Below, piece after piece: positions 20-45,662 of a stretch of 45,964 nt of DNA. Origin of the DNA: a virus; the IMG/VR virus record IMGVR_UViG_3300033998_000339, positions 1-45,964 of that record; one strand, given 5' to 3'. The notes under the pieces are model-generated. The model was not told the DNA's origin and did no database searches. It saw nothing but the letters and a program-made list of their open reading frames with translations. The position numbers and the translations under genes were made by a program. Positions within the stretch are counted from its first letter, which is position 1. Every line of letters begins with the position of its first letter.

Positions 20-94
20 GGGCGGGTAGTTCAGTGGGAGAACGTCTGCTTGACGCGCAGAAGGTCGTAGGTTCAATTCCTACCCCGCCCACCA
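20..94 (+). tRNA. tRNA-Val (anticodon GAC)
   Basis: This 75-base cloverleaf has acceptor stem GGGCGGG/CCCGCCC, D stem GTTC/GAAC (29-32 with 40-43), anticodon stem TCTGC/GCAGA (45-49 with 57-61), loop TTGACGC with anticodon GAC at 52-54, T arm with GTTCAATTC, and an encoded CCA at 92-94. It is intact because the phage attachment sequence restores its 3' half. The original 3' half now lies at 45607-45651. Confidence 0.95.
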
Positions 95-105
95 GGAAAA
101 TCAAG
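50..105. repeat. attL core, 56-base direct repeat
   Basis: Bases 50-105 are identical to 45607-45662. The repeat starts in the anticodon loop and runs through the encoded CCA plus 11 bases. Sequence diverges immediately on both sides (C/A before, A/T after). This is the classic product of tyrosine-integrase recombination into a tRNA 3' end. Confidence 0.93.
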
Positions 106-168: not shown

Positions 169-1380
169 TTACCGCTTAACCCCTGTAGGGGGTTTTTCTT
201 TTGTTCTCAGGTAGCTGTCCAGCTTCACTGCCGCCCGCTGCAGCATTTCTGGTCTGACATGGGAGTAAATATCCATGGTCACATTTATCCTTGAATGTCC
301 AAGCAGTTCTTGAACAACTTTCGGATGTTCACCGGCTTCCAGAAGCAGTGTCGCGCAGGTATGCCTTAAGTTGTGCAGGGCCACGTGGGGAATGCCTGCC
401 TTCTTTAGCAATCGGGCATAACGTTTTCCGAAATTGTCAGGGTCCAATGGCCGCCCGTCTTCAGTACAGAACACCAGGCCGTTATCCTGGTATTCTTGCC
501 CGAAGAAAAGTTTCTCCTGGGCCTGGCGCCTTTTGTGTTCCTTTAGTTCCCGCAGAACCTCGCCGGGCAAAGGGACTGTCCGCCGGGACTTTGGGGTTTT
601 GGGTTCGTTGAAAACAAGGGCCGTTTTGGTCGGGCCGTTTTCAACTTTCACCCGGCCAATGGACTGCCTGACATGAACAACGCCGTTCTTCAAGTCCACG
701 TCCTGCCAGCGCAGGGCCAGCAGTTCTCCACGCCGCAGGCCGGTCCCGACGTCCATCAGAAAGGCTGCGTAAAGCCTGTCCGCCTTTGCCGCTTCCAGGA
801 AACGGGCCACTTGTTCAGCCGTCAACGGCTGAATTTCCTTGTAACGCAGTTTGGGCAGGCTTACTGCTTCGCTTACGTTCCGGTGAATAAGCTGTTCTTT
901 CATTGCTTGTTTTAACGCACCGTGAATAACCTGGTGCATCATGTGGATTGTCCTGCTTGACAGGCCGCCCTTTTTGCCATCAGCCCGGCCGCCTTCCATT
1001 TTGCTGTTGTACAGCCTCTGTAAATCTCCAGCCTGTAATTTGCTCAAGGGGACATGGCCAATTTCCGGGATTATGTGCAACCTGGCCACATCCTTATATC
1101 CATGCCACGTTTTGGGCCGCACACGGGGCTTTACATAATCATTCAGCCACCTATCCAACCATTCTCCCACCGTCACCTTGTGGGGTTCTACAAAAGTTCC
1201 CGTGGCCTTCTCGTGCTGCACCTGGACCAACCATTCTTGTGCCTCTTTGCGAGTTTTAAAGTATTTGGTGACCCGCTTCAACTTACCTGTGGTCGGGTCG
1301 CGGCCAATGCTGGCCTGGGCCATCCATCTACCGTCAGGACGTTTAGTGATTGTCCCTTCACCGTGCCCGCGTTTAGCCAT
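169..1380 (-). CDS. int: Tyrosine site-specific integrase
   Basis: This 403-residue recombinase catalyses integration and, with Xis, excision at tRNA-Val. The N-terminal 60 residues resemble the AP2-like arm-binding domain (GEGTITKRPDGRW). A SAM-like core-binding domain spans about 70-175 and the catalytic domain about 185-390. Visible catalytic residues are R216 (TGLRRGEL), H336 and R339 (HNLRHT), H362 (LGH) and Tyr372 (IYSHV). The gene lies directly beside attL, as expected. Its ATG follows the TAG of immA without a gap (TAGATG), so it is translated from the repressor-immA-int message and should be made in the lysogen. The terminator for the tRNA lies within its 3' end. Confidence 0.95.
   Translation of the reverse strand: MAKRGHGEGTITKRPDGRWMAQASIGRDPTTGKLKRVTKYFKTRKEAQEWLVQVQHEKATGTFVEPHKVTVGEWLDRWLNDYVKPRVRPKTWHGYKDVARLHIIPEIGHVPLSKLQAGDLQRLYNSKMEGGRADGKKGGLSSRTIHMMHQVIHGALKQAMKEQLIHRNVSEAVSLPKLRYKEIQPLTAEQVARFLEAAKADRLYAAFLMDVGTGLRRGELLALRWQDVDLKNGVVHVRQSIGRVKVENGPTKTALVFNEPKTPKSRRTVPLPGEVLRELKEHKRRQAQEKLFFGQEYQDNGLVFCTEDGRPLDPDNFGKRYARLLKKAGIPHVALHNLRHTCATLLLEAGEHPKVVQELLGHSRINVTMDIYSHVRPEMLQRAAVKLDSYLRTKEKPPTGVKR
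178..202 (+). terminator. Rho-independent terminator for the tRNA transcript
   Basis: AACCCC (178-183) pairs with GGGGTT (189-194) around a five-base loop. It is followed by a T tract TTTTT-C-TTTT. It reads rightward out of the tRNA and overlaps the last codons of the oppositely oriented integrase. The original host terminator with the same T-tract pattern is stranded at 45683-45708, so the phage seems to replace it. Confidence 0.6.
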
Positions 1381-4799: not shown

Positions 4800-5971
4800 G
4801 AATAGCCCACATCGGAGATGTCCACTGGGGCCTGGGGTACCCCGGCCCCACTCCCCAATCCCGCTTTGAGGATATTACACGGGTCATGGACTGGGTAGCC
4901 GACCGCATAATTGAGGAACAATGTAATCTTGTGCTATTCGCCGGCGATGCTTTCAAGGATGCCAGGGTCTTTCTGGACCGGGCCAGCGTGGAGATCAAGG
5001 CCTTTGCCGACTGGCTACGCAAGGTGACGGCGGCCGGTATCCCGGTAATAGCCATAAGCGGTACACCCAGCCATGATGCCATTTCAGCCTACCGTTTGAT
5101 CCAGGATATGCAAATTCCCGGGGTGACCATACTTACTGAACCGGGAGTGGTTCACCACAAGGGTCTTTCCATTGCCTGTCTCCCGGGGATGAGCCGGTCT
5201 GCTTTGGTCACCCAGGAGGAATACCGTGATCTCCCCACACACGTTATCCACCACATAATGACCGACAAAATAAAAGATATCTGCCAGGGGTTACGGGCAC
5301 AATGCGAAAACCTGGCCGTACTCCTGGCCCATCTTACCTACGATCTGGCCAACAAGGGCTTCGAGGACGTTCTGATGCAGCATGAGCCAGTGCTGACTAA
5401 AGAAGCCATCCAGGGGTTTGACCTGGTGTGCTTGGGGCATATACACCGGCCACAACAGAACGGTCGGGTGTTCTACTGCGGGAGCCCGGAGCGTTTGAGT
5501 TTCAACGACGAGCAAATTACCCCCGGTTTTTGGATTCACGAATTTAACCTGGCGATGTTTAGACAGATGACGAATCCTATCAAGTCTCGTTTTATTGAAA
5601 CGCCGGCCAGGCCCTTTGTGACGGCTACCTGGGAGGATTGGGTGGTTGAAGGTTTCATAAAGGGCAGAAAACCCGGCCCGGGCTTTAAGGATGCTGTGGT
5701 TCGCCTCTGGTATAGTTGCTCTGAGGAACTGGCTAAACAAATGGACCGCAAAGCTCTGGAGAGGGCGCTTTATGAAGTCGGTGCTTTCTATGTTGCTGAG
5801 ATCAAAGCCGACATCCAGCGAATAGATAGGGTCCGGGACCAGGGGGTTACTGAGACCCTGGGACCGGTAGAGGCCCTGGCCAGGTGGGCTAAGCAACATA
5901 ATATCCCCGATAACGAGATCGAGGCCCTGCAGGCCATGACCGCAGGGCTGCTGGAGGAGGTAACTATATGA
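4796..5971 (+). CDS. sbcD: SbcD-like nuclease subunit (metallophosphoesterase)
   Basis: This 391-residue protein is the Mre11-type nuclease partner of SbcC, acting on DNA ends and hairpins. Metal-site motifs are D8 and H10 (GDVHWG), D51 (AGDAF), H93-D94 (GTPSHD, replacing the usual GNHD), a histidine in LAHLTYD, and GHIHRPQ. The C-terminal 120 residues match the capping region. It overlaps its neighbours by ATGA on both sides, so the three-gene set is translationally coupled. In phages SbcCD relatives serve replication, recombination and end processing. Confidence 0.9.
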   Translation: MRIAHIGDVHWGLGYPGPTPQSRFEDITRVMDWVADRIIEEQCNLVLFAGDAFKDARVFLDRASVEIKAFADWLRKVTAAGIPVIAISGTPSHDAISAYRLIQDMQIPGVTILTEPGVVHHKGLSIACLPGMSRSALVTQEEYRDLPTHVIHHIMTDKIKDICQGLRAQCENLAVLLAHLTYDLANKGFEDVLMQHEPVLTKEAIQGFDLVCLGHIHRPQQNGRVFYCGSPERLSFNDEQITPGFWIHEFNLAMFRQMTNPIKSRFIETPARPFVTATWEDWVVEGFIKGRKPGPGFKDAVVRLWYSCSEELAKQMDRKALERALYEVGAFYVAEIKADIQRIDRVRDQGVTETLGPVEALARWAKQHNIPDNEIEALQAMTAGLLEEVTI

Positions 5972-24798: not shown

Positions 24799-26106
24799 AT
24801 GCGTGGCGGACTTTTTAATCCAATTACGGACCTGCAATTAGTTATTGCTTCCCTCCCGGCGCATTACGAACGTGATATCAGGTGGACGCAAAAGCCCGGG
24901 GCAAGGACAGTGTTGCTGTCTCCAAACAGGTTGACAGTCAACATCGGCAATCAAGGCTACAAGCTCGACTCCCAGATAGAGCTTGACCTGAATATAGCTG
25001 CAAATTGGGATTCAATAAGCCCCAGCGACTACACGGTGGCTGCAAACCGGGCAGGGAAAGATTTTTACATCTATGCCTGCCAGCCAGTCAGCGGCACAGC
25101 ACCAAAGATATTACTTTCAGCCAATTCAACTGTACCCAGCGGGTATAATGCTAATAATTCTCGTAAAATAGGAGGTTTTCATTGCCTTTGTGTAGGTGTT
25201 AATCATGCCAGCACTTTGACAGCGTGGGCACCTAATACGTCAATAAGTATAGGTGTTACAAGGAGAGCTACCACCTGGGATGGTTACTTATATAGATGTA
25301 TCACGGCGGGTACTACCGGCACAGCTGAGCCAACATGGTCAAATTACAGTGTTGGTCAGACAATTACAGATGGTAGTGTTACATGGTTAAAAGAGAGTCA
25401 TAGTCTTGAGGGATATGAGGCGGGCGATATTCTTCCTGCTTCCATTTGGGACTTAAAACACAGGCCCGTATCCAATCCGGAGGGAATGGTCTATTCCGAG
25501 GCGGCGAACATCTGGGTAGATATTTATCTCCAATCCGGCACCGGCGCAAATACCGCCAGTGTGTTTGGCGCAACTATCACCGACAACCGTAACTGGATGG
25601 ACTTTGTTGACGACGCCGGCGCGGTTAGAAAAACTCTTCTCTCTGACATTGAATTCCAACTGATTGCTGCTGGCAGCAATGAAGAAACCAATATAGCGGG
25701 AAGTGCTGATCCAGGCACTACCGGCGGCCATGTGGATATAGCAGGAAGGCGTATGATCAGCAACATTGGTTGCGAAGATTGCTGTGGGGTTATGTGGCAG
25801 TGGCTAAGGGATCAGTCTTTTAGAGTTGAGGCGAACCACACTCACACTGAAAACACAGCTGCCACATATACTCAGAATGCAACCACGGCCGCTACCGACT
25901 TTGCCGTCTGGAGATGGTATGATCTTCCCGGTGCCAAAGGGTCTTTATACAGACAGGGAGCCTTCGGTGATGTAAAGTTGCGCGCGGGCGCGGCTTGGAC
26001 CGATGGCGCGTCTTCCGGGTCGCGGTCTCGTGATGCGGCTGGCTATCGCTGGTATGCGGCTGCGGCTATCGGTTGCCGGCTGCACGCGGAGCCTTTAAGA
26101 GCGTAG
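24799..26106 (+). CDS. DGR target: variable ligand-binding tail protein (C-type-lectin-like)
   Basis: This 435-residue protein probably displays a variable binding surface at the tail. The last third resembles the C-type lectin/formylglycine-enzyme-like fold of DGR targets (WDLKHRPVSNPEGMVYSEAA, MWQWLRDQSF). The variable segment at residues 393-431 carries GSRSRDAAGYRW and IGCRLHA, followed by five fixed residues. A probable insertion at about 148-200 resembles a carbohydrate-binding module (WDGYLYRCITAGTTGTAEPT). Fifteen codons differ from the template, 14 changing the amino acid. All seven template AAT codons are changed. Confidence 0.9.
   Translation: MRGGLFNPITDLQLVIASLPAHYERDIRWTQKPGARTVLLSPNRLTVNIGNQGYKLDSQIELDLNIAANWDSISPSDYTVAANRAGKDFYIYACQPVSGTAPKILLSANSTVPSGYNANNSRKIGGFHCLCVGVNHASTLTAWAPNTSISIGVTRRATTWDGYLYRCITAGTTGTAEPTWSNYSVGQTITDGSVTWLKESHSLEGYEAGDILPASIWDLKHRPVSNPEGMVYSEAANIWVDIYLQSGTGANTASVFGATITDNRNWMDFVDDAGAVRKTLLSDIEFQLIAAGSNEETNIAGSADPGTTGGHVDIAGRRMISNIGCEDCCGVMWQWLRDQSFRVEANHTHTENTAATYTQNATTAATDFAVWRWYDLPGAKGSLYRQGAFGDVKLRAGAAWTDGASSGSRSRDAAGYRWYAAAAIGCRLHAEPLRA
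25977..26090 (+). repeat. DGR variable repeat (VR)
   Basis: This 114-base segment is offset 166 bases from the template repeat. The 19 substitutions are A to G (12), A to C (5) and A to T (2), read template to variable. It ends 13 bases before the TAG stop codon of the target gene begins. Confidence 0.97.
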
Positions 26107-26120
26107 CGCGGCGACTTAAA
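26094..26120. other. Hairpin downstream of the variable repeat
   Basis: TTTAAG (26094-26099) pairs with CTTAAA (26115-26120), with an inner GCG/CGC pairing (26101-26103 with 26107-26109, loop TAG). Many DGRs have a hairpin or cruciform just after the variable repeat that aids target recognition. The stem here is imperfect. Confidence 0.45.
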
Positions 26121-26142
26121 TTTTTGGGCTAACAGGTCTCTG

Positions 26143-26256
26143 GTTGCACGCAGGCACGGATTGGACCAATGGCACGAATTCCGGGTCGCGGTCTCGTAAT
26201 GCGAATAGCTATCGCTGGAATGCGAATGCGAATATCAGTTGCCAGCTGCACGCGGA
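26143..26256 (+). repeat. DGR template repeat (TR)
   Basis: This is the non-coding donor for the variable repeat, containing 27 adenines of which 19 are altered in the present variable copy. Seven AAT codons in the reading frame of the target can mutate to many residues but not to stop codons. Its transcript is copied by the adjacent reverse transcriptase. The region 26257-26381 between it and the RT gene presumably forms part of the structured template RNA. Confidence 0.97.
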
Positions 26257-26381
26257 TACAGGATTTGAGCTAACTCCTGGCTGGACCTGTTGGCCTTGTT
26301 CCGGGAAACCGGGGCAAAATACGAGAAAGGAGTTTGGGAATAGCTAGTAGTCATAACGAACGTTATTCCCAAAAAATAATT

Positions 26382-27410
26382 ATGAAAAGACATGGGAACC
26401 TGTTTTCGAAGATAGTTGATCCAGATAATATTTATAAAGCTTATCGTAACGCCCGGAAGGGCAAAGGATGGCAAAGAACGGTCCAGGAATTTGAGAAAAA
26501 TCTTGACACAAACTTGGCCAAAATTCGGCAAAGCTTAATTAACAAGACTTTCAGAACATCACGTTACAAGATAAAGATCATACACGAACCAAAAGAACGA
26601 GTCATCTACAGATTGCCTTTTAACCCCGACAGAATTGTCCAACATGCGCTTATGAATGTGCTTGAGCCGATTTGGGATAAATTGTTCATCTATGATTCAT
26701 ATGCTTGCAGAAAAGGAAAGGGAATTCACGCCGGGAGCAGGCGCACAATGGAGTTTGTTAGAAGGAATAAATATTGCCTTAAGTGCGATATTTCTAAGTT
26801 TTACCCCTCGATTAACCATGACATCTTATATAATATCGTACAGAGAAAAATTAAGTGCAAGGATACGTTATGGTTGATAAAGGACATTATTTATAGCATA
26901 GGCGGCGGCGTGAATGTTCCTATTGGTAACTATACAAGCCAGTGGTTTGGCAATCTGTACCTGAATGAGCTTGACCAGTTTATCAAACATAAATGTCACA
27001 TTAAAGATTATATCCGTTACTGCGACGATTTTTTGTTGTTTCATAACGATAAGAAATTGTTGGGTGAAATGGCCCAGGTTATTGAGTGCTTTTTAAGGGA
27101 GAAGTTACAACTTAAGCTTAGTAAAATTGATCTTTTTCCGGTGTCAAGAGGCGTTGATTTTCTCGGCTACAGACATTTTAAGGGATATATACTTATCCGG
27201 AAGAGTACGGTTAAACGGGTTAAGAAGAGGCTGAAGAAGCTCCCCATTCTTCTTGAGAAAGGCAGAATTACCCTCGACCAATACCGCTCATCGCTGGCTT
27301 CAACAATGGGATGGTTGAGATGGGCCAACAGTTACAATCTACGGAAAAGCCTTCAGATTGATTTATTGATGGAGGCGTGCAATGGAAAAGCAGAAAATAA
27401 AAAGATTTAG
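26382..27410 (+). CDS. DGR reverse transcriptase
   Basis: This 342-residue RT copies the template RNA with errors opposite adenine. Catalytic Asp136 (KCDISKFYPSI) and the YCDD box at 213-216 (RYCDDFLLF) are intact. Motif IGNYTSQ at 181-187 is the DGR-type form, where group II intron RTs have QGxxxSP. I chose ATG 26382, though no strong ribosome site precedes it; TTG at 26334 has AAAGGAG but at too short a spacing. The gene looks clearly more A/T-rich than the surrounding structural genes, in keeping with transfer as a cassette. It overlaps the next gene by 29 bases. Confidence 0.95.
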   Translation: MKRHGNLFSKIVDPDNIYKAYRNARKGKGWQRTVQEFEKNLDTNLAKIRQSLINKTFRTSRYKIKIIHEPKERVIYRLPFNPDRIVQHALMNVLEPIWDKLFIYDSYACRKGKGIHAGSRRTMEFVRRNKYCLKCDISKFYPSINHDILYNIVQRKIKCKDTLWLIKDIIYSIGGGVNVPIGNYTSQWFGNLYLNELDQFIKHKCHIKDYIRYCDDFLLFHNDKKLLGEMAQVIECFLREKLQLKLSKIDLFPVSRGVDFLGYRHFKGYILIRKSTVKRVKKRLKKLPILLEKGRITLDQYRSSLASTMGWLRWANSYNLRKSLQIDLLMEACNGKAENKKI

Positions 27411-27690
27411 CGATTTTGCACAAGAGGCAAAACCAATGGACGGGGCAAAACTTAAAATAGATGATGTTGTGAACAAAGAAATCTTAATCATTGGTTGCAA
27501 GATTAAGGACAGTAAATATTCAAAATCTAACTCATCAAAGTGTCTAACTATACAATTCATCATGGATGATAAGCGATATGTTTTGTTTACGGGGTCAACT
27601 GTTCTAATTGAGCAAATGGAAAAGTACCAGCATGAAATTCCATTTCTGGCAACAATCAAAAAGATTGATAGATATTATACTTTGTCATAA
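27382..27690 (+). CDS. Putative DGR accessory protein, OB-fold-like
   Basis: This 102-residue basic protein starts inside the RT gene and is A/T-rich like it. Blocks KLKIDDVVNKEILIIGCKIK, CLTIQFIMDDKRYVLFTGS and FLATIKKIDRYYTLS suggest a small beta barrel, possibly binding single-stranded nucleic acid. Proteins of this look occur next to phage reverse transcriptases. No Avd-type four-helix protein is seen in the cassette, so this may take its place. Role is inference from overlap and composition. Confidence 0.65.
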   Translation: MEKQKIKRFSDFAQEAKPMDGAKLKIDDVVNKEILIIGCKIKDSKYSKSNSSKCLTIQFIMDDKRYVLFTGSTVLIEQMEKYQHEIPFLATIKKIDRYYTLS

Positions 27691-27702: not shown

Positions 27703-28011
27703 ATGGTTGGTTTTCCGAAGTGGCTTAATACGAAAGAAGATTACTTATATGTCCGTGAGCATTTTCCACGTGAACAATGGGAGCCTGTTTTTCAAGCACT
27801 TTTGGATGAGCGCATGGCATGGCTGAATGTAGGACAGTTAAACAACGAAGCGGAAGGAATAACTGACGATACACATAAAGTGGTTGTTGTTGGTGGGGAA
27901 GATGGGATGCCGGTACAATATTATCAATACGAGTACAAAGAGGATCCGAATTGTAGATTGTTTAGGCTTGGATTTACGGTTGAAGAAGTTCAACAGTTAC
28001 TGAATAGATAA
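27703..28011 (+). CDS. Hypothetical protein downstream of the DGR
   Basis: This 102-residue protein begins VGFPKWLNTKEDYLYVREHF and has a conserved-looking helical start followed by a beta segment (HKVVVVGGEDGMPVQYYQYE). AAGGAGGG precedes the ATG. It resembles small phage proteins of unknown role. It could belong to the DGR cassette or to the tail module. Confidence 0.55.
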   Translation: MVGFPKWLNTKEDYLYVREHFPREQWEPVFQALLDERMAWLNVGQLNNEAEGITDDTHKVVVVGGEDGMPVQYYQYEYKEDPNCRLFRLGFTVEEVQQLLNR

Positions 28012-45606: not shown

Positions 45607-45662
45607 TTGACGCGCAGAAGGTCGTAGGTTCAATTCCTACCCCGCCCACCAGGAAAATCAAG
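45607..45662. repeat. attR core, displaced tRNA-Val 3' end
   Basis: It is identical to 50-105 over 56 bases and carries the original 3' part of the tRNA including CCA. It lacks the 5' half, so it is not a functional tRNA gene. Confidence 0.93.

Follow-up and report, generated by a model that had tools for sequence, protein, structure and literature searches.

Diversity-generating retroelements (DGRs) as such are ordinary among phages. DGRs without the accessory protein Avd, the fold of which is a four-helix bundle, are frequently portrayed as lacking an accessory gene altogether. In the DGR of phage BPP-1 the cDNA is primed from the spacer; the commonest error of the BPP-1 reverse transcriptase (bRT) in E. 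coli is the misincorporation of dC (59.3%), which gives rise to G in the variable repeat (VR), and dG is placed opposite A in 26.8% of NAC contexts as compared with 2.5% of NAT contexts (PMC12875486). In the 'Lineage 3' DGRs, e.g., that of crAssphage LMMB, the target gene is followed by the template repeat (TR) and the reverse transcriptase (RT) gene, and avd is absent (PMC7290462). The known accessory proteins of DGRs are Avd, HRDC and MSL (PMC10053308). In the legends of the report on archaeal DGRs, the ANMV-1 cassette is drawn with an Avd ORF, and Avd-sized ORFs are listed in other archaeal DGRs (PMC4372165).

The DNA analyzed here, referred to below as the window, is the entire stretch of 45,964 nucleotides of the IMG/VR virus record IMGVR_UViG_3300033998_000339. 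This record is a complete integrated prophage of ~45.6 kb, since it carries a 56-bp direct repeat that includes the 3' portion of a tRNA-Val gene, and an integrase-like ORF adjoining the left copy of the repeat. The window ends in a stretch of ~300 bases that probably belongs to the host. The DGR is located among the structural genes of the prophage in the order target gene (with the VR at its 3' end), TR, RT gene, a gene for a 102-aa protein that overlaps the end of the RT gene, and a second gene for a 102-aa protein (Table 1). The element is a genuine and intact DGR of a known kind, and we are highly confident of the reading in which a complete prophage carries a DGR ordered target(VR)-TR-RT-accessory that diversifies an Mtd-type tail tip. 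The initial annotation had assigned a DGR with a tail-ligand target to positions 25977-27690, and this holds; the interval, however, also spans the gene overlapping the RT end, which was left undiscussed there, and neither the ends of the prophage nor the structured RNA of the spacer nor a candidate accessory gene had been recognized.

Table 1. Positions of the DGR components, RNA elements and prophage landmarks in the window.
Feature	Position	Strand	Basis or remark
tRNA-Val (gac), integration site	20..94	+	
attL, 56-bp direct repeat with attR	50..105	+	
Tyrosine integrase adjoining attL	169..1380	-	ORF, identity from its sequence alone
Target, 435 aa, Mtd-like receptor-binding tail protein, VR at 3' end	24799..26106	+	
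Variable repeat (VR)	25977..26090	+	Gap-free alignment and repeat search
Short inverted repeat directly 3' of VR (TTTAAG / CTTAAA, 15-nt loop)	26094..26120	+	Weak, 6 bp
H1 5' strand, TR-enclosing helix	26126..26139	+	Pairs with 26283-26296
Template repeat (TR)	26143..26256	+	Gap-free alignment and repeat search
Candidate priming duplex, TR 3' end/flank with spacer (CGG..CAGGA with TCCTG..CTG)	26253..26283	+	Compensatory changes
H1 3' strand	26283..26296	+	Own-partner pairing score
Spacer hairpin H2	26297..26316	+	
Spacer rod H3, conserved internal AGTAG...CGAA	26333..26373	+	10/12 pairs changed on both sides
DGR reverse transcriptase, 342 aa from ATG	26382..27410	+	
Candidate accessory protein 'ACC', 102 aa, pI 9.2, predicted OB-like barrel	27382..27690	+	
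Conserved 102-aa protein tied to target gene	27703..28011	+	
attR, 56-bp	45607..45662	+	

The VR and the TR align without gaps over 114 nt at an offset of 166, with 95 of the 114 positions identical. All 19 mismatches are found at the 27 adenines of the TR and none at the 87 other bases; 12 of the changes are to G, 5 to C and 2 to T. At the protein level, 14 residues are replaced and a single change, at 25984, is silent; all seven in-frame AAT codons are altered. These numbers (114 bases, 19 differences, 27 adenines and 87 other bases, as well as the seven AAT codons and 14 residues) had been given in the initial annotation and were reproduced exactly when recomputed, and an independent repeat search recovers the identical VR/TR pair. 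The 3' ends of the two repeats diverge in the manner of IMH and IMH*, where GGA is followed by GCC in the VR and by TAC in the TR; the same is observed in most relatives. The short inverted repeat behind the VR lies where BPP-1 has its target-site stem-loop and is barely above chance, with a family mean of 5.1 vs 4.4 in shuffles. In the relatives, (A/C)ACG words are enriched in the first 70 nt past the VR (85 vs 30 expected from shuffles) and at times form imperfect AAACG repeats, as in loci L047, L032, L074 and L073.

The RT belongs, by its sequence, to the DGR group. The IGNYTSQ and YCDD motifs that had been reported for it were both confirmed, it matches phrog_1423 with an E value of 5e-128, and its best PDB match in a phmmer search is 8ub7 (E 5.6e-54), while the group II intron RTs score at ~1e-19. 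The 8ub7 entry, labelled simply 'Reverse transcriptase' in the PDB table, we take to be the BPP-1 DGR RT. The RT gene more likely starts with the ATG at 26382, since most relatives align from there (residue 17); the alternative, a TTG at 26334, lies within the H3 arm.

The target protein is, by homology, a counterpart of Mtd, the tropism determinant of BPP-1. It matches the Pfam family of the second Mtd domain (PF21916, E 3.7e-17) and the tail protein family phrog_11262 (E 2.8e-54), and its family profile matches the Mtd crystal structures in the PDB with an E value of 1e-24; the VR domain, which in a DGR target is expected to be of the C-type-lectin type, aligns with the variable domain of Mtd in a second, weak stretch (12 bits). 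The AlphaFold2 model of the target has a pLDDT of 42, is unusable and carries no claim about the fold. The role of a tail ligand, proposed for this protein from the outset, is thus well supported through homology to PF21916, phrog_11262 and Mtd in the PDB. The second 102-aa protein, which belongs to no known family, is conserved and encoded after the target gene or the DGR in most relatives. In L076, L077 and L079 its gene immediately precedes that of the target, and in L117, where the RT was not found, it is still present along with a target gene. It is possibly a dedicated chaperone of the tail protein.

The 102-aa protein encoded by the gene overlapping the RT end, which we call ACC, has no meaningful match in Pfam, NCBIfam or PHROGs and no sequence match in the PDB. 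It is present in 46 of the 50 loci collected with the RT as a seed, nearly always directly 3' of the RT gene; it is missing from L003, L004, L024 and L051, where it may be dispensable or replaced, and is placed between the VR and the TR in L035. Conversely, the RT is present in 31 of the 35 ACC-seeded loci. In the four exceptions (L081-L084) the RT is gone along with the N-terminal portion of ACC, and the 3' end of the ACC gene is retained; both repeats are still present in L081 and L082, and the target gene in L083, while L084 lies at the edge of a contig. RT decay appears to have recurred with a similar breakpoint region. ACC is conserved, with a length of ~100 aa, and none was found away from DGR loci in the relatives and Omnitrophota genomes searched; among 384 Omnitrophota genomes a single one encodes it, and this genome carries the DGR. 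A search with PF05635 (Avd-like) returned nothing in the window or in the DGR loci of 50 records, the three matches in those records being located elsewhere than the DGR or below the cut-off; this profile finds an Avd-like gene beside the DGRs of VP58.5 and BalMu-1 and misses the Avd of BPP-1, which means that a divergent Avd could escape it.

The AlphaFold2 model of ACC has a pLDDT of 90.4 and the topology E-E-E-H-E-E, as in OB folds. When the model was compared with the PDB using Foldseek, the weak matches included OB proteins, none of them below an E value of 0.1, while in a comparison with viral models the two best matches, as well as others lower down, were annotated as RTs (E 5e-7, 9e-7 and 7.6e-3). 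The RT of cr7_1 also resembles ACC structurally according to Foldseek, while sequence profiles reveal no homology between the two. These model comparisons suggest that an ACC-like domain may be fused to RTs elsewhere. In the crAss-like loci L091, L094 and L103, the DGR RTs possess C-terminal extensions of ~90-100 aa, the predicted fold of which may resemble ACC. A relationship in sequence between ACC and these extensions was considered and rejected, with HMM scores below those of shuffles and an hhalign probability of <10%.

The TR is embedded in a structured RNA. The spacer between the 3' end of the TR and the RT start is a conserved structure of 26 base pairs, which are 93.4% paired, and 18 of them have changes on both sides; the covariation is 0.614 as compared with 0.212 in shuffles (0/500 as high) and with no more than 0.19 in slid versions. 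A model of the spacer RNA built from 28 loci recovers it ahead of the RT gene in the majority of the other loci, that of vir525 among them, and weakly in cr55_1 and BalMu-1. The helix H1 is formed by the sequence just upstream of the TR and the sequence 3' of a GGCTG(A/G) motif. Its upstream strand is misplaced in the multiple alignment, and for that reason the helix was tested by swapping partners: over 49 loci the mean own-partner score is 11.3 vs 6.4 for swapped partners and 6.2 for shuffles, and 41 of the 49 loci beat all 50 of their shuffles; for H1 in the window the own-partner score is 12.5 vs 6.4. From this pairing it follows that the TR is located in a loop closed by a helix of 12-14 bp. 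By analogy with BPP-1, the pairing of the spacer with the 3' end and flank of the TR likely represents the priming duplex.

The bias towards G in the VR, initially put forward as a trait of this particular RT, turned out to be family-wide: changes to G make up 467 of the 910 A-site changes in the DGR family (51%), and the 12 of 19 counted here do not differ from this average (p = 0.21). The fraction of G does vary among loci beyond chance (p = 5e-6). A dependence on context is seen for changes to C, which affect the second A of in-frame codons in 111/404 cases for AAT vs 3/93 for AAC (Fisher p = 2e-8), in a spectrum drawn from natural VRs, which have passed through selection and are partly related by descent; when stratified by alignment column, the effect has an odds ratio of 9 (p = 1e-4). 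Selection on the coding sequence is an unlikely cause of this A-to-C context, since AAT and AAC lead to identical amino acids. The A-to-C context does look distinctive for this DGR family, being the reverse of the preference measured for BPP-1 (PMC12875486). The error context in natural repeats offers a way to ask if it is the partner protein, the RNA or the RT that sets the spectrum.

Near repeats such as the VR and the TR in a metagenomic record may be subject to collapse or chimerism, and the adenine pattern could in principle be an assembly artefact or a chance divergence of two repeats, but the probability that 19 random mismatches would all fall at the 27 adenines is 1e-15, and the same pattern is observed in 57 distinct VR/TR pairs from related loci, which contain 910 changes at A sites vs 28 changes at 5,005 non-A sites; we give this explanation virtually no credence. 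Diversification by the copy in the window we infer from past retrohoming in one genome. For the DGR family activity is well supported by sequence comparison, since near-identical siblings differ only or mainly in the VR. Loci L022 and L043, which come from different metagenomes, have 18 differences over 5,462 bases, all 18 of them in the VR and 17 at template adenines, with identical TRs; L030 and L044 also have identical TRs and 15 VR differences, all at A and none elsewhere, with 3/300 in the flank; L077 and L079 differ at 17 A sites and at no other site of the VR, with 1/300 in the flank. Among the near-identical phages L076, L077 and L079 the TRs themselves vary, exclusively at template adenines (4-5 sites with respect to L079), which looks like hypermutation or conversion of the template, the alternative being VR-TR assembly chimerism. 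A decayed passenger, in which the VR reflects an old retrohoming event and the element no longer works in the prophage, would be consistent with the single genome available, with the existence of the RT-deleted relatives in which just the 3' end of ACC is left, and with a pattern scan of viral contigs, which found no sibling, i.e., no other VR of this exact TR. The RT, ACC, the target and all RNA helices are, however, intact, the RNA scores 112.8 bits, and zero non-A changes have accumulated at the 87 sites, and we consider such decay to be quite unlikely.

A rival of more weight concerns ACC itself, which may be a neighboring phage gene, e.g., for a single-stranded DNA-binding protein, that travels with the tail module. 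The gene of the second 102-aa protein also travels with the target gene, even without the RT (L117), ACC is absent from L003, L004 and L024, and OB-like folds are common in single-stranded DNA-binding proteins. Against this, ACC also comes after the RT in phages that are unrelated and in archaeal viruses (L085 and L086), its best viral structure matches include the RT-annotated proteins mentioned above, and it was not found in the 383 other Omnitrophota genomes. While a passenger of the tail module is doubtful, ACC is probably an accessory subunit of this branch of DGRs.

With ACC as a subunit, the following mechanism can be proposed. The sequence of the TR is copied over the VR, with alterations confined to adenines, and the TR resides in an RNA with enclosing paired flanks and a covarying spacer; both of these steps are backed by sequence comparison. 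The RT would bind the TR RNA jointly with the OB-like protein, which would take the place of Avd. Priming of the cDNA would take place from the spacer, where the 3' end of the TR pairs with TCCTGGCTG, and dNTPs would be misincorporated opposite A. The cDNA would then replace the VR starting from its GC-rich 3' end, at the point where the VR and the TR diverge, and the phage would gain tail-tip variants with altered receptor binding. We hold with about even confidence the more far-reaching proposal that the OB-like protein is an unrecognized subunit that replaces Avd and, together with the helix-closed TR RNA, forms a distinct retrohoming particle, present in phages and archaeal viruses, the error rule of which (A-to-C favored before U and disfavored before C) is the reverse of that of BPP-1. 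In the literature that we covered, outside of which there are important papers, the ACC family, the quantified RNA architecture and the context rule are probably undescribed. The conserved partner and the covarying template RNA are direct and testable candidates for what allows the RT to recognize its template.

The element resembles the BPP-1 DGR (mtd-avd-TR-brt) in the adenine-only differences between the VR and the TR, the position of the VR at the 3' end of an Mtd-type gene, the homologous RT (8ub7) and the presence of a structured spacer between the TR and the RT. It differs in the order of its genes, which is target-TR-RT-accessory here and target-avd-TR-RT in BPP-1, and in encoding an OB-like protein with no Avd detected by PF05635, a profile that does not find the BPP-1 Avd either, whereas BPP-1 possesses Avd; when the same simple test was applied to BPP-1, no counterpart of the 12-14-bp helix around the TR emerged. 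With lineage 3 it shares the target-VR-TR-RT architecture without avd and a homologous RT; the annotated RTs of LMMB, cr55_1 and cr7_1, however, have a C-terminal extension of ~90-100 aa. A clear ACC homologue is encoded directly 3' of the RT in ANMV-1 and in the Methanosarcinales virus vir525 (E 2e-31 and 9e-36, respectively), where the records label it 'hypothetical protein'; the RT of ANMV-1 is more distant (40%). ACC (pI 9.2, 11.9 kDa) and Avd (pI 9.55, 14.5 kDa) are alike in being small, basic and encoded beside the RT, and differ in fold, ACC being a predicted beta-barrel and Avd a bundle of four helices.
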